From Bacillota bacterium (GTDB lineage Bacteria > Bacillota > DSM-12270 > Thermacetogeniales > Thermacetogeniaceae): 64,000 nt of DNA. The DNA lies in the NCBI GenBank assembly GCA_013177945.1, contig JABLXW010000014.1, forward strand, positions 1-64,000. Reading direction: 5' to 3'. Positions 2,720-53,980 of this stretch are shown piece by piece. A program made the translations under genes and the position numbers. Position 1 is the first letter of the stretch. Each line of letters starts with the position of its first letter. A model generated the notes under the pieces. It searched no databases and had not been told where the DNA came from. It was given only the letters and a program-made list of their open reading frames with translations.

Positions 2720-3730
2720 CTACCAGCCGGCAATAAAGGGTCTGTACTTCCCCTCGCCCCTCAGGAAGGTGGCCACCCGCCTTGCCTGGCGCTGGATGAT
2801 GGACCTCAGCCTGTACTTCTTCCCCTCGTAATTCTCCTCGCCGTCGAGACGCTCCAGCACCCGCCTGGCAAGCTCGCGCCGGGTCTCTTCCGTGAGGCTC
2901 CCTTCTTCCTGGGCAAGCGTGGCGCCCCGGAGGATCATGCCGATTACTGTGCGGTCCACGGTGCAGGCGCGGAACTCCTCGGTCAGGTCGAGCACAAGGC
3001 TCGGCTTGCCGGGCCGGTCGGTGTGGAGAAAGCCGGCGAAAGGCTCCAGCCCCGCCAGCATGACCGCCCCCCAGACCTGGGAGTAAAGGATGCCGTAGCC
3101 GTAGTTCAGGGCGGAGTTCACGGGGTCCTCCGCACCCCGGCGCTCGCGCCCGGCGAACTCGATCTTTTGCCCGAGCAGGAGGCCCACCCCCTCCCAGTAA
3201 GCCTGGGCGGCACGGCCTTCGATGGAGAAGATGCTGCCCCGCGCCTCATCTACCGTTCCGCCGGAAATACCCTCCAGTTCTTTTTTGATTTCCTCTATTG
3301 CGGCGATCCGGGATGCCAACTCCTGGTAGAGGGCGGGATCGGAAGCCCGCCGGTACTTCCCGAAGTATTTCAAAACGTTTACCTGGTTCCGGAGCTTCCC
3401 GTCAACAAAGGCCAGCGCCAGGGCCAGCCCGCGGCCGTCGTTGTAGGCGAGGATCTGCTCCCTGCGGGTGATCACCGTACCGCTCAGCTGGGGGGAGGTC
3501 ACCTTGGCGTAGGGCTTGCCCGAAGGGGTGAGGAAGTTGATCTGGATTCCGTGCTGGATGCACTCGAGCACCACGTCAGAGGAAAAGGAAACCCCGCGTG
3601 AAGCAATGGTAAGGCAGGTGATGTCCCGGAAAGGGATCTCCCTCACCACCTTACCCTGCTCCTTGATGACCAGCCGCTCGCTTTTCTTTCCCAGGGTCGT
3701 CCCGAAGTTGATGATAAAGATTTCGGACAG
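2720..3730 (-). CDS. cas1: CRISPR-associated integrase Cas1, probable CTG start
   Basis: Cas1, the spacer-integration endonuclease. Conserved features are the N-terminal FGTTLGKKSERLVI hairpin, DPVNSALNYGYGILY with the catalytic Asn/Glu region, AGLEPFAGFLH with the catalytic His, and SLVLDLTEEFR with the catalytic Asp and Glu. An ATG/GTG start would begin at VREIPFRD and remove the first beta-strands. The frame is open upstream to a TGA, and the only plausible initiator giving full length (336 aa) is CTG at 3730, with GGGGGTGAG 5 nt ahead. A start at the internal GTGs near 3649 is possible but would shorten the conserved N-terminus. It is the first gene of the adaptation module. Confidence 0.9.
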   Translation of the reverse strand: MSEIFIINFGTTLGKKSERLVIKEQGKVVREIPFRDITCLTIASRGVSFSSDVVLECIQHGIQINFLTPSGKPYAKVTSPQLSGTVITRREQILAYNDGRGLALALAFVDGKLRNQVNVLKYFGKYRRASDPALYQELASRIAAIEEIKKELEGISGGTVDEARGSIFSIEGRAAQAYWEGVGLLLGQKIEFAGRERRGAEDPVNSALNYGYGILYSQVWGAVMLAGLEPFAGFLHTDRPGKPSLVLDLTEEFRACTVDRTVIGMILRGATLAQEEGSLTEETRRELARRVLERLDGEENYEGKKYRLRSIIQRQARRVATFLRGEGKYRPFIAGW

Positions 3731-38970: not shown

Positions 38971-39309
38971 CTAAAGGGCAGATTCCCCGGCTTCTCTGGT
39001 TCGAATCCGGACTGCGTTCGCGACGGGGTAGATAAAGATTTTACCATCGCCAATCTCGCCTGTTTGGGCTGCCTCACAGATCAGTTGAACAACCTGCTCT
39101 ACCTCTTCATCTTTTAAAACAACTTCAACTTTCACCTTCGGCAGCAGATTAATGGGGGTTTCCACGCCCCGGTACACCTCTGTCCAGCCCCGCTGGGAGC
39201 CACACCCCATTACCTGGGAAACAGTCATACCGTGGTGGCCAAACCTGTCGAGGGTCTCCTTGACCTTGTCCAGTCTGTCGGGCCTGATGATGCACTCCAG
39301 CTTGGTCAC
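38971..39309 (-). CDS. glnK: PII signalling protein GlnK
   Basis: A 112-residue PII protein. It shows the N-terminal LECIIRPDRLDKVKETL, T-loop RGWTEVYRGVETPINLLPKV, and the C-terminal GEIGDGKIFIYPVANAVRIR. It lies directly after amtB and should bind AmtB to block ammonium uptake when nitrogen is plentiful. Residue 51, the uridylylated Tyr of enteric PII, is Thr here, so control must rest on ATP/ADP/2-oxoglutarate binding. GTG start with AGGAGGG upstream. Confidence 0.95.
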   Translation of the reverse strand: MTKLECIIRPDRLDKVKETLDRFGHHGMTVSQVMGCGSQRGWTEVYRGVETPINLLPKVKVEVVLKDEEVEQVVQLICEAAQTGEIGDGKIFIYPVANAVRIRTREAGESAL

Positions 39310-39330: not shown

Positions 39331-40647
39331 TTAGAAAATGTGGTCGTAGGCACGTTCTCCGTGCATGGGGAGATCGAGTCCTCTAATCTCCTCCTCGGCG
39401 GTTGCCCGGAGTTTTACGACGGCACCCACCACTTTCAGGAGCACGAAAGTGGCGACCGCAGCAAACAACCAACTCGCCATCACACCGACGAACTGCACCC
39501 AGAGCTGGCCCGGGTTCCCAAAGAAGAGGCCGTTGGCGCCAGCCGGGTTGATGGCCCTGGAAGCAAACAACCCGGTGGCAAGGGCGCCCCAGGTGCCGCC
39601 AATTCCGTGTACACCAAAGACATCCAAAGAATCATCGTAACCAAGTCTGACCTTCAAAACACTCACCGCAAGGTAGCAAACCACACCGGCCACAAGACCG
39701 ATCACCACTGCCGGTACTACGCCTACGTAACCCGAGGCCGGAGTAATGGCCACAAGGCCGGCCACACACCCGCTGGCAGCCCCCAGTACGGTGGGCTTCC
39801 CGTGATGAATCCACTCCGTAAATACCCAGGCCAGGGCCGCAGCGGCGGCCGAGGTATTGGTTACCACAAAGGCACTGGCGGCCAGCCCGTTTGCCGAAAG
39901 GGCGCTTCCGGCATTGAAGCCGAACCAGCCGAACCAGAGAAGGGCTGCCCCCAGCACCGTCATAGGAAGGTCGTGGGGAACCATCGGTTCACTCCTGTAG
40001 CCCAAGCGTCTGCCTAAAACAAGGGCCGTGATCAAACCCGAAACTCCAGAGCTGATATGAACAACAGTGCCCCCGGCAAAATCAAGGGCTCCTAGATTGC
40101 GAAGCCAGCCGCCGACTCCCCACACCCAGTGCGCCAGCGGGTCGTAGATAAAGGTGGTCCACAGCAGAGTGAAGACGAGAAAGGCTGGAAAACGCATCCT
40201 TTCTGCAAAAGATCCCGTGATTAAAGCTGCAGTAATAACGGCAAACATCAGCTGAAAAGCCATAAAGGCCAGGTGGGGGATCGTCGCGGCATAGTCAGGA
40301 TTAGGATCCAGGCCTACCCCCTTCAAGCCCAGCCAGGAAAGTTGTCCCAGCAAGTGCATTTTATCGGGGCCGAAAGCCAGGCTGTAGCCAAAAAGCACCC
40401 ACTGGACGGAAACCAGACAGATGATAATGAAGCTCTGCATGATGGTGCTCAAAACATTCTTACGCCGCACCATCCCGCCGTAAAAGAGCGCCAGGCCCGG
40501 TGTCATCAACATCACCAGGGCAGCAGAGAGCAGCACAAAAGTAGTATCACCTGTATCTACAGGGGATCCGTTAGCCCAGGCTAAACCGGAGGCCCCTAGC
40601 CAAAAGAGAAGCAAGAAAAATCCAGCCTGAATCAACCGTCTGAGCAT
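39331..40647 (-). CDS. amtB: Ammonium transporter AmtB
   Basis: A 438-residue Amt with a cleavable signal peptide (IQAGFFLLLFWLGASGLAWA) and eleven spans. Family motifs: LVMLMTPGLALFYGGMVRRK, DFAGGTVVHISSGVSGL with the first pore His, GLVAITPASGYVGVVPA and FGVHGIGGTWGALATGLFAS with the second pore His. ATG 40647 is preferred to the TTG at 40677 because GAGGGGG lies ahead and the signal peptide follows. First gene of amtB-glnK, 21 bp before glnK, with a long leader. Confidence 0.96.
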   Translation of the reverse strand: MLRRLIQAGFFLLLFWLGASGLAWANGSPVDTGDTTFVLLSAALVMLMTPGLALFYGGMVRRKNVLSTIMQSFIIICLVSVQWVLFGYSLAFGPDKMHLLGQLSWLGLKGVGLDPNPDYAATIPHLAFMAFQLMFAVITAALITGSFAERMRFPAFLVFTLLWTTFIYDPLAHWVWGVGGWLRNLGALDFAGGTVVHISSGVSGLITALVLGRRLGYRSEPMVPHDLPMTVLGAALLWFGWFGFNAGSALSANGLAASAFVVTNTSAAAAALAWVFTEWIHHGKPTVLGAASGCVAGLVAITPASGYVGVVPAVVIGLVAGVVCYLAVSVLKVRLGYDDSLDVFGVHGIGGTWGALATGLFASRAINPAGANGLFFGNPGQLWVQFVGVMASWLFAAVATFVLLKVVGAVVKLRATAEEEIRGLDLPMHGERAYDHIF

Positions 40648-40956
40648 AAAAACAACCCCCTCAAGTATTTTCAGCAACCCTGCAATTAATATTGAGGCAG
40701 AATTATTGAGGCAAGCCGTAATTCACCACCCCCTTCTCCCAAACAGGCCAGAAACGCAAAAGGCCCCTGCCTTCGGGAACTGCCTCGTTCCCAAAACAGG
40801 GGCCTCGCTGCCTTGCCGGTTCCGCAGCCCTGCGGACGCCCGGCCCGATCTTTTTGCGGCAGAGCCGGGAAACGGTGCGGGAACGCAAAATCCCCGCATT
40901 TTTGCGGGGACTTCCTCATCCCGGGTCCGGCGCCTGCGCCGCAACATCTTCGTTTG
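40648..40956 (-). ncRNA. Structured attenuator leader of amtB-glnK
   Basis: A roughly 300-nt leader on the minus strand. In order: hairpin P1, CGGC/GCCG around a hexaloop (40928-40941); a conserved segment GGGATGAGGAAGTCCCCG; P2, CCCCGCA/TGCGGGG (40892-40909); P3 CCGGC/GCCGG; P4 TCCGCA/TGCGGA; then an intrinsic terminator, AGGCCCCTG/CAGGGGCCT (40761-40805) with TTTTGCGTTT. Positions 40805-40930 are nearly identical to 43252-43377 before nifH (126 nt, two mismatches). It looks like a regulated transcription attenuator; ligand or binding protein unknown. Confidence 0.75.
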
Positions 40957-41038: not shown

Positions 41039-41772
41039 TTAAAAAATGTCCCCCCGTAAAACCCTCTCGACGTTCTGCAGGAAGCGCTCGCGCCAGGGTC
41101 GCATCTTTCTCCATTGCGCCCGGGTCTCCCGAAGCAGTGCCTCAGCGGCCCCGAGCCCGCCAAAAGCCGCCAGCTCATCCGCGTAAACCCGGGCCCATTC
41201 TTCTATCATCTCCGGCGTCACCTCTAGGTGAAACTGAAGCGCCCAGGCGTAACCCCCCGCGTAAATGCCCCATAGACAAACGCCTGGTTGCTGCAGGTTT
41301 CGCCCCTGGCAAGCAAAAACGCTCCGTCTGGTAAACTAAAAGTATCTTCATGCCATTGGAAAACGTCGAACTCCGGAGGCATTCCGGCGAAAAGGGGAAC
41401 AACCCGGCCTGCCGGAGTCAGGCGGACCGGGTACCAGCCGATCTCCTTGACCGGATTCGGCCTTACATTTGCTCCCAGCGCCCGGGCGATCAGCTGACCA
41501 CCCAGGCAGATCCCCAGCGTCGGCAGCCGTAGTGATACCGCCTTCTTTATTAACTCCTGCACCTGAAAAAGATAGGGGAAGGTTTCTTCTTCATCGGCTC
41601 CCATCGGCCCGCCCAGAATTACAAAGGCATCATAATTCCCAAGGCTTTCCGGCAGGGCTGCACCGGCCTGGTCCATACATCTGACGTCAAGCACCCATCC
41701 TTTCCGGCAGAGCACATCCTCTAATAACCCTGGCCCCTCACAGGCCACGTGCTGCACCACCAATGCCCGCAA
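41039..41772 (-). pseudogene. Class I glutamine amidotransferase, one frameshift
   Basis: The first frame (from TTG 41772) codes RALVVQHVACEGPGLLEDVL, FVILGGPMGADEE, and the nucleophile region TLGICLGGQLIARALGA with the catalytic Cys, then ends early. The second frame continues GGYAWALQFHLEVTPEMIEE with the catalytic His-x-Glu. One missing base in the C6 run at 41253-41258 explains the break. The intact gene would be a stand-alone GATase1 of about 240 residues (GMP-synthase-like). The first-frame product lacks the catalytic His. Confidence 0.85.
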
Positions 41773-42659: not shown

Positions 42660-43399
<740 letters not shown>

Positions 43400-43503: not shown

Positions 43504-44706
43504 TCACGGGACTCTTTCTTCTGCTCCGGCGAACCCCTCGGAATCAGCCTCCAGGTCAATAAACAGAAAGCGGTCGGCGCCCAGAGGATAAACGAACGTG
43601 CGAACGGGCCGGCACGATTCCAGATCCAGATACGCGGCTGAGAGGACCCCTTGCCTTTTCCGGGCGGCTTCGACCACGTACGGGAAAAAATATGGCCTCC
43701 AGCACCAGTTGCGCCCGACGTACCCGTACTGCGGAAGCCAGTTACCCGTGCCGTTTTTGACGTAGTTGGGCGTTTTCTGATACCCGTAACTGTCACAAAC
43801 ATAAACCCTGATCCACGATGGGGGCGCAGCGCGAAGCAACTGACTGAGGCATTCGTCCAGACGGTCGGCAGCGCCCGACACATCGTTCAACAGCGCGTTC
43901 ATCTGCGCGGCGATCTCCAGCTCGCCAGTCCAGCGTTTAACCTTTCCGCTCACGTAACGATCCAATTCTCGGGCGATCAAATCCGCCAGACTATCCTCGG
44001 GCAGCAGTTCCGGTTGTGGCGGAGCCAAGAAATAACCCTGAAAATACCGGACGCCGGCATCAAGCCCTGCCAGGAACTGCTCTTCGGTCTCTACGCCCTC
44101 CAGCACCAGGTTTAAGCCTGTTTCGTGGGCAAAAAGGCCAAGAACTTTCAGCAGGGAGCAGAAGAGCGCTTTGTTACTGGTATCTCCTGGTAACGCGGTG
44201 CTGATCTTTAAAAAGTCCGGCTTGAGGACAAAAATCCTTTCAAGGTTGTTAAATTCAAGCCCGAAGTCGTCGAGCGCAACTTTGCAACCGGCTTCGCGGT
44301 ATCTGCCAGCGAGTTCGGCCAGATCCTTTGGGGCCACGGAAGCTCCCGCCTCGCTTATTTCAATCACGATCCGGTCACCTGATATACCATACGTTTGCAG
44401 GTAGTCGACGGTCGGCAGGCGTTCGGCGCGGCCAAGAAACGGGTAAACCCACTGCGGCTGGATATTCAGAAATACTTTGGCTCCGATACCCGCAGCAGCT
44501 ACCTGCTCCAGGGCTTTCTGCCGTATCAGGCGGTCGGCCTTAACCTTGGCGCGCTCGGGAACTGCCGGATCGTGGAAAAAGGGCCCGAGGCTGTAAACAC
44601 CACCTGGTGTCTGTACCCGGCCCAGCACTTCGTAACCGGCTATTTTTCCCGCATCCACCGCTATTATCGGTTGAAAGAAAGGGACTATCGCATCGTCCTC
44701 CGGCAA
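43504..44706 (-). CDS. EAL-domain c-di-GMP phosphodiesterase (YkuI-like)
   Basis: A 400-residue protein. The EAL domain (about 5-240) has GYEVLGR (EVL in place of EAL), FLNIQPQW, IVIEISEAG, VALDDFGLEFNNLERI, DFLKIS, LVLEGVETEEQF and YFQGYFLAPPQ, so the metal-binding and catalytic residues are kept. The C-terminal 160 residues resemble the YkuI_C PAS-like sensor domain, including QYGYVGRNWCWRPYFFPYV. It should degrade c-di-GMP. TTG 44706 follows GGGGGAGGGGG. Its promoter and leader resemble those of amtB and nifH, linking it to nitrogen control. Confidence 0.9.
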   Translation of the reverse strand: MPEDDAIVPFFQPIIAVDAGKIAGYEVLGRVQTPGGVYSLGPFFHDPAVPERAKVKADRLIRQKALEQVAAAGIGAKVFLNIQPQWVYPFLGRAERLPTVDYLQTYGISGDRIVIEISEAGASVAPKDLAELAGRYREAGCKVALDDFGLEFNNLERIFVLKPDFLKISTALPGDTSNKALFCSLLKVLGLFAHETGLNLVLEGVETEEQFLAGLDAGVRYFQGYFLAPPQPELLPEDSLADLIARELDRYVSGKVKRWTGELEIAAQMNALLNDVSGAADRLDECLSQLLRAAPPSWIRVYVCDSYGYQKTPNYVKNGTGNWLPQYGYVGRNWCWRPYFFPYVVEAARKRQGVLSAAYLDLESCRPVRTFVYPLGADRFLFIDLEADSEGFAGAEERVP

Positions 44707-44965
44707 GTTAATCCCACGCCCCCTCCCCCGTTCCGTTCACGGCGAGGTCTGCTCCCGACCCCCACCGGCCTGCCCTCCGATCCGCAGATAGTCTACGTTT
44801 CCTCACCCTGCGGGTAACGGCTCACCGGTCCAGCCGCCGTGCGGCCCCCAGCATCACGCTTGTTATCATTCGTAAAACGAGGGGAAAAGCAAAGCCCCCG
44901 TACTGTTTTTACGGGGACCTCCTCATCCCGAAGCCCGACTGCTTCGCCGAAATACTTTAGTTTTC
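44707..44965 (-). ncRNA. Short attenuator-like leader of the EAL gene
   Basis: A diverged, shortened relative of the amtB/nifH leaders. P1 is CGGC/GTCG with hexaloop GAAGCA (44936-44949). The conserved segment is GGGATGAGGAGGTCCCCG. P2 is CCCCGTA/TACGGGG (44896-44916), where a C-G pair of the long form is T-A: a compensatory change. P2 is followed by GCTTTGCTTTTCCCC, so it could act directly as a weak terminator. P3, P4 and the distal terminator are not found. Confidence 0.65.
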
Positions 44966-44971
44966 TAATTA

Positions 44972-45029
44972 TTTTTACACGAGTCTCTCAAAAATACAAC
45001 CCCTTTGGGAAAAAGTATTTTGTATACTT
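44972..45029 (-). promoter_or_regulatory. EAL-gene promoter with upstream palindrome
   Basis: -35 TTGTAT (44994-44999) and -10 TAAAAA (44972-44977) are 16 bp apart on the minus strand. The palindrome AAGTAT-N5-ATACTT (45013-45029) lies 13 bp upstream of the -35. The stretch from the palindrome to the -10 is nearly identical to that of amtB, pointing to a duplicated promoter. Confidence 0.65.
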
Positions 45030-45197: not shown

Positions 45198-45773
45198 TCA
45201 GAGCGCGGCGAAGATCTCTTTTGCTTCTGCCTCAAACCCCTGCAAAACAAGGGATTTAACCTTTCCCTCCGCTTCGACCCTCTGGTTCAGGGAAAATTTA
45301 CCCTCCTGCCCCACATATACTTCAACACTTTTGTCTTCGGGATCCACAATCCAGTATTCTTTCACTCCGTGGGCGGCATAGGTCCTCGCCTTTTTCTTTA
45401 AATCGTAATAGGCGGTGGAGGGAGATAAAATCTCGATTACCAGATCGGGAGCGCCGTTGATTCTGGCAGGCTCGATGATCTGGAACCTGTCTTTCGCAAC
45501 AAAAACAATGTCAGGCTGGTAAGTTTCCTTTTCTTCGAAATAGACATCTATGGGTGCAGAAAAAACCATACCCAGGTTCTTCGCAGTAATAAAAGCAAAA
45601 ATCCACCCTCCCAAGCGCATAGAAATAGCTTGATGATAAGTTGTCGGCGACGGAGTCATCACCAGCTTGCCTCCTATGAGCTGGTAGGGAGCCCCCTCGG
45701 GCAGCAGGGCGTAATCCTCATAGGTATAAACTTCTTTCTGGGGAATTTTGATCTCTCCCGGCGACAGGCTCAT
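45198..45773 (-). CDS. Uma2-family (DUF820) putative endonuclease
   Basis: A 191-residue Uma2/DUF820 protein with the restriction-endonuclease-like fold: YTYEDYALLPEGAPYQLIGG, MTPSPTTYHQAISMRLGGWI, YQPDIVFVAKD (active-site Asp), APDLVIEILSPST (Asp/Glu) and KARTYAAHGVKEYWIVDPED with the catalytic Lys. The cellular role of the family is unclear; it is frequent in cyanobacteria and Clostridia. ATG 45773 follows GGTGGTGG. Confidence 0.92.
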   Translation of the reverse strand: MSLSPGEIKIPQKEVYTYEDYALLPEGAPYQLIGGKLVMTPSPTTYHQAISMRLGGWIFAFITAKNLGMVFSAPIDVYFEEKETYQPDIVFVAKDRFQIIEPARINGAPDLVIEILSPSTAYYDLKKKARTYAAHGVKEYWIVDPEDKSVEVYVGQEGKFSLNQRVEAEGKVKSLVLQGFEAEAKEIFAAL

Positions 45774-46062
45774 CAAAGATCCACCACCCTTCTGTGCTTA
45801 CACATATTTTAACACGAATTTTTCCTTTCAGGAAAGCTTTTCATTAAGTGGTCCGGGATAAGCCCAAATCTTTCTTCAATAAGTGGCAGGCTCTTGCGCT
45901 CCCACCCCGCCTCCCTTCTGGTCACGTTTTTGTGATGATGAGCATAATTATAGAAGAAGAGGTGGCAACGGCGCCATGAGTTTTCTGCAAAACGAGGGCG
46001 CCGCTTACTTTTATCCAGACCCAACCGCCGTTCAATTTTCTTATCCAGAGGAGTTGAGTGAG

Positions 46063-51456: not shown

Positions 51457-53685
51457 TCAGGACCTGTTAAGGATCTGGTAGAGGGCAGAGGCTCCCTCCG
51501 CACGCGTCAGGCCGGACCCGGGGTCGAAGCCTTTGTTTAAATCGAAGATTCCGAGCCCCGCGGCCAGGGCCAGGCAACCCTGCTCGGAGGCCGGCAGACC
51601 TGCCAGACCTGGGGGCAGGGACCAGATGCTGGCAAGTCCTGCCACCTCGTCCCAGCCCAGAGCGCGCACCACCAGGCGGGCCAGCGCAAGCTTGCTCAAG
51701 TCTTCCCGGGGCGAGTACTGCTCGCCGGGCTTCAGAATGCCGAGCATCAGGGCCTGGCGGCAGGCCTTTTCAAACTCCCGGTCAGGATCGGAGGCAGGCC
51801 GCGGCTGCCAGCCGGAAGCCCGCACCAGCCAGATTAAAAAGTCGCGCTGCGAAAGCCTTGCCTCCGGGTGAAAGGCGGCTTCGAACACCGGGATAATCCT
51901 GGCTTTCGCCAGCAGGTTTACGGCACCGGCAGCGGGGTGTCCGGAGAGGTCGGAAAAGGCCATCTGGTCCGCACCCTGCTTTGGCTGGAAGTCGTAATCC
52001 AGCCCTGTTCCCTGAAAGGCATCGACATAGACAGGGGATTTGCCTGTGTCTAAAGCGTAGACGAGGCGAATGGGGCGATCCTCTGGCGGCTGGTACGGAG
52101 TGGGAAAATCCCGCCGGTAGCACAAAACGAGAGAACCGCCCGCAAGAAAGACATTTTCTGCCTGCTCCCTGCTGATCACTCCCCGCGCCTCTGGGAACTT
52201 CATCTCCCACCAGTTGAGCCGGTAGCTTGTAATCTTCCCCTGAACGGCATCGACGTAGATCTGGACGCCATTCCCCCTGAAGGGGATGCCGTTCACAAGG
52301 CGCGCCGCCGTAAAGCCGTAGGCCACCGGCTTCGGCTTCACCTGCCCGGGCTCAGACGCAGCAGGTTTATGCACAGGATAGGGACCGGGCACCGGGGCGA
52401 CGCGCAGCTCCTCAAGTTCTCCTAAATAGCTGCCCGCGACTCTGGCAAGGAAGCGGGAGGCCATATCCCGCGCCCCGGCTTCGGTGATGCGGGGTTCCCC
52501 GGTCGGCTCCGGGCCGGGGCCGGAGAGGTTAAAGCTGACGACCTGCCCTTTTCCGGCCTCAACGCCTACGTTGAGAGACCTTTCTTCATCTTTGTTCCGC
52601 CAGTAGAAGTTCCAGACCTTCTGCCCTGAAAAGTATTCCTGCTGCAGGCTGGAACTTTCAAGGTCAAAGCCGGGGGGAATCTCGATCTGGGAGCGTGCAA
52701 GATCAAGGGCCTTTTCCCTGCTGATGAGCTTTTCCATCTCGGCCAGGGCTGCCTGTTCGGCCGGTGTGAGCGGTGCACTTTTCATTGCCCTGTGCTCCCC
52801 GCCGCCGGCTCCGCCCATTTCGAATCCGTAATAATCGAAATGCCGCTCGGGTTTTAAAATTTCGCCGCTTCTGGCATCGATCATCAATTCACGGGCTTCA
52901 GGGGCAAAAACCAGCCGCGCCGGGGCGTCTCTCTCTTCACCCTGGCGGAAGTAGGCGAGCCGGACCCCGGCGTTTTTCCGCCACAATGCCGCTGCCTGGT
53001 CGGGAGCGATGAGATCTTTTGCCTCCGGAAACTCTAACCGGCCGTCCCAGTTGAAGTGGAAGCTCCGGACCTCGCCCGTATTCGCGTCAACCTCGACGCT
53101 GGCGGAGTTTTCCGGAAAGGGGATGCCGCCCACCATCCGCACAAAGTTAAAGGAGTAAACAGGCGGCATCCCGTCCCGCAGGCTGACATAAGGAAAAGAG
53201 GACCCGTCTTCCGAATCAAGTTTAAGATCCTTCACATAATTCGGTAAAACCCGTTTGAGAAACTCCCCGGCCTTCACCACGGCATCGGCGCGGCTCAGCT
53301 TGGGAAAGCCGCGCCTCGCGGTTCCGGGAGCTGGGGTTTTCCACTGGTCCAGCGACCACAGTTCCCCTGTTTCGGCATTTATCCGGGCATAAATGCTGTC
53401 TGAATCAGGGTGCTCATCGCTGCTCCAGTGCAGTTCCCAGAAAACCCCCTGTTTCTCATCTTCACTGTAGCCCGGTTGGAAATTTTTGTACTCTTCGGGG
53501 ATGCGGACGAACTGCTTTGCGAGCGCGATCGCCTCTTCCAGCGTGATCCTGGCTCCCTTGACCCTGGCAGCCTGCGCTCCCGGAGCCTCCCCGCCGCAAG
53601 CCGGTACCGCCCATCCCAGCGCGCTTCCGCCCAGCATAACAACAGCCAACCAGAGAGCTACCCACCGCCTGGCCCAAACTCTCAC
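51457..53685 (-). CDS. Secreted PepSY/YcdB-like protein with SLH domains
   Basis: A 742-residue exported protein. The signal peptide ends near GSALGWAVPACGG. Two copies of a YcdB/YcdC-type region follow (about 35-330 and 325-570), each with PepSY-like halves: FWELHWSSDEHPDSDSIYAR, VYSFNFVRMVGGIPFPENSA and, in copy 2, YGFTAARLVNGIPFRGNGVQ. The C-terminal 150 residues hold S-layer homology repeats (FSDLSGHPAAGAVNLLAKAR; GLTRAEGASALYQILNRS), which bind the cell wall. GTG 53685 is chosen because AGGAGAGG precedes it and the signal peptide then starts directly. Confidence 0.85.
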   Translation of the reverse strand: MRVWARRWVALWLAVVMLGGSALGWAVPACGGEAPGAQAARVKGARITLEEAIALAKQFVRIPEEYKNFQPGYSEDEKQGVFWELHWSSDEHPDSDSIYARINAETGELWSLDQWKTPAPGTARRGFPKLSRADAVVKAGEFLKRVLPNYVKDLKLDSEDGSSFPYVSLRDGMPPVYSFNFVRMVGGIPFPENSASVEVDANTGEVRSFHFNWDGRLEFPEAKDLIAPDQAAALWRKNAGVRLAYFRQGEERDAPARLVFAPEARELMIDARSGEILKPERHFDYYGFEMGGAGGGEHRAMKSAPLTPAEQAALAEMEKLISREKALDLARSQIEIPPGFDLESSSLQQEYFSGQKVWNFYWRNKDEERSLNVGVEAGKGQVVSFNLSGPGPEPTGEPRITEAGARDMASRFLARVAGSYLGELEELRVAPVPGPYPVHKPAASEPGQVKPKPVAYGFTAARLVNGIPFRGNGVQIYVDAVQGKITSYRLNWWEMKFPEARGVISREQAENVFLAGGSLVLCYRRDFPTPYQPPEDRPIRLVYALDTGKSPVYVDAFQGTGLDYDFQPKQGADQMAFSDLSGHPAAGAVNLLAKARIIPVFEAAFHPEARLSQRDFLIWLVRASGWQPRPASDPDREFEKACRQALMLGILKPGEQYSPREDLSKLALARLVVRALGWDEVAGLASIWSLPPGLAGLPASEQGCLALAAGLGIFDLNKGFDPGSGLTRAEGASALYQILNRS

Positions 53686-53922
53686 AGGTTTCCTCTCCTT
53701 TCGCAGCTTTTCGGGTTCTCCCACCCGCAATTTGCCTTCCTTATTACTTACTACTTACATTTTACTTGCTGCTTACATCTCTTTTTGATTCTAACAGATC
53801 AGGACGACGGTGTATATGTAATATTTGCCTGATATTTGCCTGCAAGAAAATGCGGCATAACCCTGGCTAGCTTTCAACAAGGTAGATTCAGCCGGAGACG
53901 GCTTTGAGGAAGCAGGCGAAGG
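53686..53922. other. Intergenic region between the SLH gene and the glnA control region
   Basis: Contains a run of related TTACTTACTACTTACATTTTAC-like words (53746-53777, quoted in part), an AT-rich stretch that probably includes the SLH-gene promoter. Nothing else is recognised. Confidence 0.4.
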
Positions 53923-53980
53923 AAGTATTATGTATACTTTTAATAATTCGGTTGACAGGTTGACCTGCTCCGATTAATAT
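53923..53980 (+). promoter_or_regulatory. glnA promoter with upstream palindrome
   Basis: TTGACA (53952-53957) and TAATAT (53975-53980) are 17 bp apart. The palindrome AAGTAT-TATGT-ATACTT (53923-53939) lies exactly 12 bp upstream of the -35. The 17-bp sequence is identical to that before nifH. Confidence 0.8.

Follow-up and report, generated by a model that had tools for sequence, protein, structure and literature searches.

The window, by which we mean the whole 64,000 nt stretch analysed, carries on its minus strand a gene (43504..44706) for a protein with EAL and YkuI_C domains (Pfam 1.5e-33 and 1.8e-27 respectively), a putative c-di-GMP phosphodiesterase, and this gene stands behind a leader element at 44951-44885. 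Read along the minus strand, the element consists of a hairpin, P1 (UUCGGC-GAAGCA-GUCGGG; 44934..44951), which has a hexaloop with G at position 4 (G4) and is placed by alignment A1 and by covariation; a linker of 4 nt, CUUC (44933-44930); a second hairpin, P2 (GGGAU-GAGGAG-GUCCC; 44914..44929), again with a G4 hexaloop and assigned from alignment and folding as the predicted antiterminator; and then CCGUAAAAACAGUACGGGGGC and UUUGCUUUU. An intrinsic terminator, GUCCCCGUA...UACGGGGGC followed by UUUGCUUUU (44885..44918, minus strand), is indicated by its folding energy of -15.3 kcal/mol and by the pair counts given below.

A predicted promoter, read from the sequence, lies at 44972..44999 (minus strand), with a -35 element TTGTAT (44999-44994), a spacer of 16 nt and a -10 element TAAAAA (44977-44972), and its layout is common to two further leaders in the window, those of amt (TTGTAT-16-TAAAAT) and nifH (TTGCAT-17-TATAAA). 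Upstream of the promoter is a palindrome, AAGTATACAAAATACTT (45013..45029, minus strand), which is a candidate DNA-binding site. When at most one mismatch is allowed the palindrome AAGTATACNNNATACTT has four copies in the 2.7 Mb genome, all of them exact, and three of the four stand at the EAL, nifH and amt leaders. The fourth, at 53923-53939 (-), is without an ANTAR leader behind it; the closest ORF (51457-53730) gives no NCBIfam match.

The two sister leaders are on the same strand. In the nifH leader the corresponding element, which we call element A (43329..43390), comprises P1 at 43390-43373, P2 at 43369-43354 and a terminator at 43359-43329, and in the amt leader (40882..40943) these parts lie at 40943-40926, 40922-40907 and 40912-40882; they score 60.0 and 51.6 bits respectively against our covariance model R1, of which both sequences are themselves members. 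A search of the whole genome with R1 (E <=0.01) finds no copy beyond the three leaders. The amt gene (39331..40677, minus strand; ammonium transporter, PF00909 6.9e-135) is followed by a PII gene recognised from its reading frame (38971-39309), and nifH (42660..43139, minus strand) by the PII-type genes nifI1 and nifI2, as judged from TIGR01287 and the translations. The nifH ORF is truncated; it has only 159 aa and matches positions 1-145 of the 275 in TIGR01287, and there is no nifDK beside nifH-nifI1-nifI2, both PF00148 matches of the genome being on another contig, C20; either a decayed nif cluster or an assembly error would account for this. A glutamine amidotransferase class I ORF (41224-41772, minus strand) likewise has an apparent frameshift near its 3' end, with the C-terminal part in another frame.

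The preliminary description of this DNA had placed a third, shorter leader copy before the EAL gene, and it is indeed there, on the minus strand. It took the element to consist of P1, a conserved unpaired segment that recurs in the copies, and a second hairpin CCCCGTA/TACGGGG. The segment does recur, near-identical rather than identical: the 18-mer GGGATGAGGAGGTCCCCG is exact at 44929-44912, has one mismatch in the amt leader (40922-40905) and two in the nifH leader (43369-43352). The window holds one further match with <=3 mismatches, in a coding region (3121-3138), against a chance expectation of 0.12 matches, and no shuffle reached 4. Matches with two mismatches elsewhere in the genome were set aside, as a reversed control pattern gives similar counts. 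The segment is, however, not unpaired, being itself the true P2, another hexaloop hairpin and a competitor of the terminator, and it is the terminator that had been described as P2. The minimal element proposed earlier was thus right in substance, as it is a complete ANTAR-type module, although its parts were misread and are P1, P2 and an overlapping terminator.

Folding provides further insight into this competition. The 3' arm of P2, GUCCC, is also the 5' arm of the terminator, which is followed by a U-rich tract, and because the arm is shared only one of the two structures can form. When the RNA is folded only as far as the end of P2, the P2 hairpin (5 bp, -6.1 kcal/mol) forms in all three copies in the window, and when the complete leader is folded the terminator forms instead; the overlap is also seen in most of the other leaders folded. 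For P1, the hexaloop hairpin described earlier is real, but the register probably meant, GAAGC-AGTCGG-GCTTC, lies 5 nt off the one favoured by the comparative alignment, UUCGGC-GAAGCA-GUCGGG. This alternative (loop AGUCGG, lacking G4) is thermodynamically favoured in the EAL copy, where it is slightly more stable, and we dropped it on comparative grounds.

For the comparison we built model R1 from 17 leaders, starting from a degenerate pattern search. In P1 four pairs are changed on both sides, a value that none of 500 shuffles equalled, and the covariation score exceeds that of every shuffle and is the best among slid controls, although these values come from an alignment fitted to the model and are hence biased toward structure; in the unfitted alignment three pairs are changed on both sides, with 12 of 500 shuffles as high. 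The distal hairpin reads CCCCGTA/TACGGGG in the EAL leader and CCCCGCA/TGCGGGG in the amt and nifH copies, and the exchange of C-G for T-A with pairing kept, from which selection on RNA structure had been proposed, is real and falls in the terminator stem. Among 21 sequences this pair is U-A in 7, A-U in 4, U-G in 3 and C-G in 2, and the covariation score of the terminator is reached by 6 of 500 shuffles. Selection on structure is therefore borne out in the larger alignment, where a lack of covariation would have spoken against it and where both P1 and the terminator covary. P2 shows no pair changed on both sides, three of its five pairs being invariant and two varying only from G-C to G-U, so that its pairing is suggested by the likeness of its loop to that of P1 and by analogy rather than proved by covariation. 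P2 is probably so nearly invariant because two competing structures constrain its sequence.

In the amt and nifH leaders the distal hairpins make up a further attenuator, distinct from the first, which we call element B. It consists of a hairpin B1 of the form CCGC-ANRGNN-GCGG, about 45 nt, and then a second terminator tipped by GGAAC-RARGNN-GUUCC. In the nifH leader (43204..43284, minus strand; apical hexaloop AAAGUA) and the amt leader (40756..40837, minus strand) it scores 95.4 and 94.6 bits against a second model, R2, of which both sequences are again members. Five pairs are changed on both sides (2 of 500 shuffles as high) and the covariation score is equalled by 0 of 500 shuffles; the B1 loops of the sister leaders have A at position 1 (A1) in 13 of 15 cases and G4 in all 15. 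With R2, element B is found in 11 of the 399 genomes, each of which carries an ANTAR protein. It has no match in the EAL leader up to E 0.5, in agreement with the earlier statement that the distal hairpins are absent there, and element B was not seen in the two leaders before genes for MCP-domain proteins.

These features invite comparison with the ANTAR RNAs of eutP in E. faecalis, nasF in Klebsiella and amiE in Pseudomonas (Ramesh et al. 2012, PMC3369931), which share with the EAL leader two short hairpins with 6 nt loops and G4, a short linker, a second hairpin overlapping an intrinsic terminator, a context of nitrogen genes and an ANTAR protein encoded in the genome. The definition calls for hairpins of at least 3 bp, and P1 and P2 have 6 and 5 bp; both loops of the EAL leader carry G4, P2 and the terminator are mutually exclusive, and the genome encodes an ANTAR protein. 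Unlike in these RNAs, the P2 of the EAL leader has U-G as its closing pair, the gene behind it encodes a c-di-GMP phosphodiesterase, and loop position 1 is A or G in the relatives rather than a fixed A. The published definition has A1 and G4 kept in both loops (PMC3369931), whereas the EAL leader has G at position 1 of each loop; P1 and P2 both follow the pattern RARGNN, and the two hexaloop hairpins with their short linker recur across the 17 leader sequences, with G4 invariant in both loops of all of them. In the EutV crystal structure A1 makes no specific protein contact (PMC8934654), although changes at A1 reduced induction in vivo. As A1 is lacking here while G4 is invariant, as A1 is free of specific contacts and as the B1 loops mostly do carry it, we file the leader as a purine-1/G4 variant outside the strict A1/G4 definition; it would act in the manner of ANTAR antiterminators, and its assignment to this type of attenuator is well supported. 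The rule in this lineage is suggested to be R1/G4, and not A1/G4 (R1 here denoting a purine at position 1), and searches made on that basis could find elements that the published model may miss.

The distribution of the leaders in relatives agrees with a role for an ANTAR protein. The R1 module is present in 9 of the 20 genomes analysed from the family, the only ones in its class, and the leaders occur in 9 of 13 ANTAR-positive against 0 of 7 ANTAR-negative family genomes (Fisher p=0.0047, relatedness ignored), four ANTAR-positive genomes giving no R1 match. Among 399 genomes sampled across the phylum, convincing R1 matches outside the family are found only in G117 and G163, both of which carry an ANTAR protein; weak matches in G138 and G356 were rejected, as inspection revealed no module. 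The genes behind the leaders, some of them named from reading the translation alone, are mostly nitrogen genes and comprise amt, nifH with nifI genes, PII, EAL-YkuI_C, an MCP-domain protein, glutamine amidotransferase class I, and amino-acid permease-like, aminotransferase-like and substrate-binding proteins. A fragment of the MCP-like protein of G004 has no Pfam match; the homologue of this protein in G011 has one. DUF1646 transporter genes also occur behind element A or B leaders, beside amt, in G004 and G011 (L258 5497-6609, minus strand; L259 3580-4611, plus strand). At one locus (L038; G001:C33:22500-25500) two element A leaders stand in tandem before nifH, 256 nt apart, and each comes with a palindrome and a promoter-like sequence of its own.

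We conclude, with a probability of roughly 0.88, that the stretch 44951-44885 of the minus strand attenuates transcription in a protein-dependent way and belongs to the ANTAR dual-hexaloop type, as a purine-1/G4 variant. The basis for this is computational and comprises the hairpins and the way they overlap, conservation, covariation within P1 and within the terminator, co-occurrence with ANTAR proteins, and the gene contexts. A metabolite-binding riboswitch, in which P1 and the conserved segment would form the aptamer and the distal hairpin a terminator expression platform, would also explain why a conserved segment adjoins a terminator in three leaders from a single gene cluster, but we consider it improbable, as that segment is itself a hairpin with a RARGNN loop like that of P1, the element is only about 38 nt long, and the leaders co-occur with ANTAR proteins. 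Nor does Rfam point to a riboswitch: at the gathering threshold the whole window yields three tRNAs and no other match, and at a permissive threshold the best match around the EAL leader is far below its family cut-off.

It is about equally improbable that the hairpin simply ends transcription of the upstream Uma2 gene (45198-45776) and has no role for the EAL gene. It does lie on the same strand, some 280 nt past the stop codon of Uma2, but a promoter and a palindrome common to the other two leaders stand between, and a different genus (G004) also has the P1/P2 module conserved in front of its EAL gene. Slightly less probable still is the action at these hairpins of some other RNA-binding protein, such as CsrA via GGA/GAGG motifs: the P2 loop of the EAL copy does contain a GGA-like sequence, but in relatives this loop reads, for example, GAGGCA, AAGGUA or GAAGGG, so that GGA is not fixed, whereas G4 and the length of 6 nt are.

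For the ANTAR-type attenuator we propose a mechanism modelled on EutV (PMC8934654, PMC3369931), in which protein binding, antitermination, the signal that induces it and the sense of the nitrogen response are inferred. By default the terminator would fold and transcription would stop before the EAL gene. An active ANTAR protein, most likely the only one of this genome, would bind the hexaloops of P1 and P2 during their synthesis, its dimer taking the two loops in turn; P2, stabilised when bound, would sequester the terminator's 5' arm, and RNA polymerase could continue.

That protein (C12:76901-77059, E 5.2e-25) is a REC-ANTAR protein encoded directly upstream of glnA, and it aligns over its full length with EutV (6wsh/6ww6, E 4.9e-31). 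The EutV residues Arg142, Lys149, Glu160 and Tyr164, which contact G4, and Met172, which plugs the loop (PMC8934654), are conserved in the alignment, the EutV chain numbering running 2 ahead of that in the paper. Four of the 11 RNA-touching residues (Arg168, Asn173, Arg175 and Arg177), which make backbone or ribose contacts, are not. The protein resembles the response regulators EutV and Rv1626 (PDB 6ww6, 1s8n) in its order of REC, coiled coil and ANTAR domains (111-118 bits over the full length), but unlike them the glnA-linked receiver is without the acidic pair (VDD to VAA); the receivers of G003, G004, G011 and G015 moreover have Glu in place of the phospho-acceptor Asp. Because of these losses, phosphorylation of the receiver is unlikely, judging from its sequence. 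Such degenerate-receiver, glnA-linked ANTAR regulators are seen at L056 1090-1683, with orthologues at L061, L067, L072 and L065. Our guess is that the inducing signal derives from GlnA or PII.

Predictions of ANTAR RNAs at amt, PII and nif genes date from 2012: according to PMC3369931 (Figure 9), predicted regulons in Desulfotomaculum acetoxidans, D. reducens and Pelobacter carbinolicus have, as here, several attenuators per genome at amt, PII, nitrogenase and glutamate synthase genes, with 13 attenuators in 6 transcription units, or about two per unit, in D. acetoxidans. In contrast to those regulons, for which the text consulted names no EAL or chemotaxis gene, the EAL gene stands here behind a leader of its own, and the layout of element B, conserved in its own right, places a hexaloop at the terminator tip.

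Since one switch stands before the EAL gene, amt-glnK and nifH-nifI1-nifI2, we propose that the EAL gene belongs to the same nitrogen regulon as these operons, at the probability given above, which applies jointly to this membership and the whole attenuator explanation. The leaders at EAL, amt and nifH, formerly unexplained, would then form one nitrogen antitermination regulon with a likely protein partner named. In G000, the genome of the window, and in G004, which belong to two genera, the EAL gene stands behind its own leader, and the two proteins are 84% identical; the EAL-YkuI_C gene is found within or next to nitrogen operons of four families. In G163 element B, amt, glnK and EAL follow on one strand; in G117 EAL and MCP genes lie beside nifH in divergent orientation, EAL being about 2 kb from the nifH leader; and in G066 the order is glnK, amt, EAL, and upstream of glnK R2 gives a weak match (21 bits) that does no more than suggest an element like B. 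When one genome per species was scanned with the EAL protein, the matches were mostly generic EAL proteins, none of them closely related and linked to nitrogen genes, and the scan was not used. A literature search, most subscription papers being outside its reach, found no paper linking ANTAR leaders with EAL genes, and a c-di-GMP phosphodiesterase is an unexpected target for which we found no earlier report in an ANTAR regulon. There is perhaps an even chance that in this lineage the glnA-linked ANTAR protein, with its degenerate and probably phosphorylation-independent receiver, controls, besides ammonium transport and nif genes, both EAL-YkuI_C and the chemotaxis (MCP-domain) protein, nitrogen status thereby setting the c-di-GMP level and motility by transcription antitermination via relaxed purine-1/G4 hexaloops; this offers a testable link from nitrogen status to c-di-GMP.

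Between terminator A and element B many leaders (for example L040, L042 and L051) share a conserved stretch of the type CGAATGATAAATCAAGCG, which is doubled in L042 and is also present in the window 3' of the EAL terminator, at about 44880-44840 (minus strand); the ANTAR elements do not account for such stretches.
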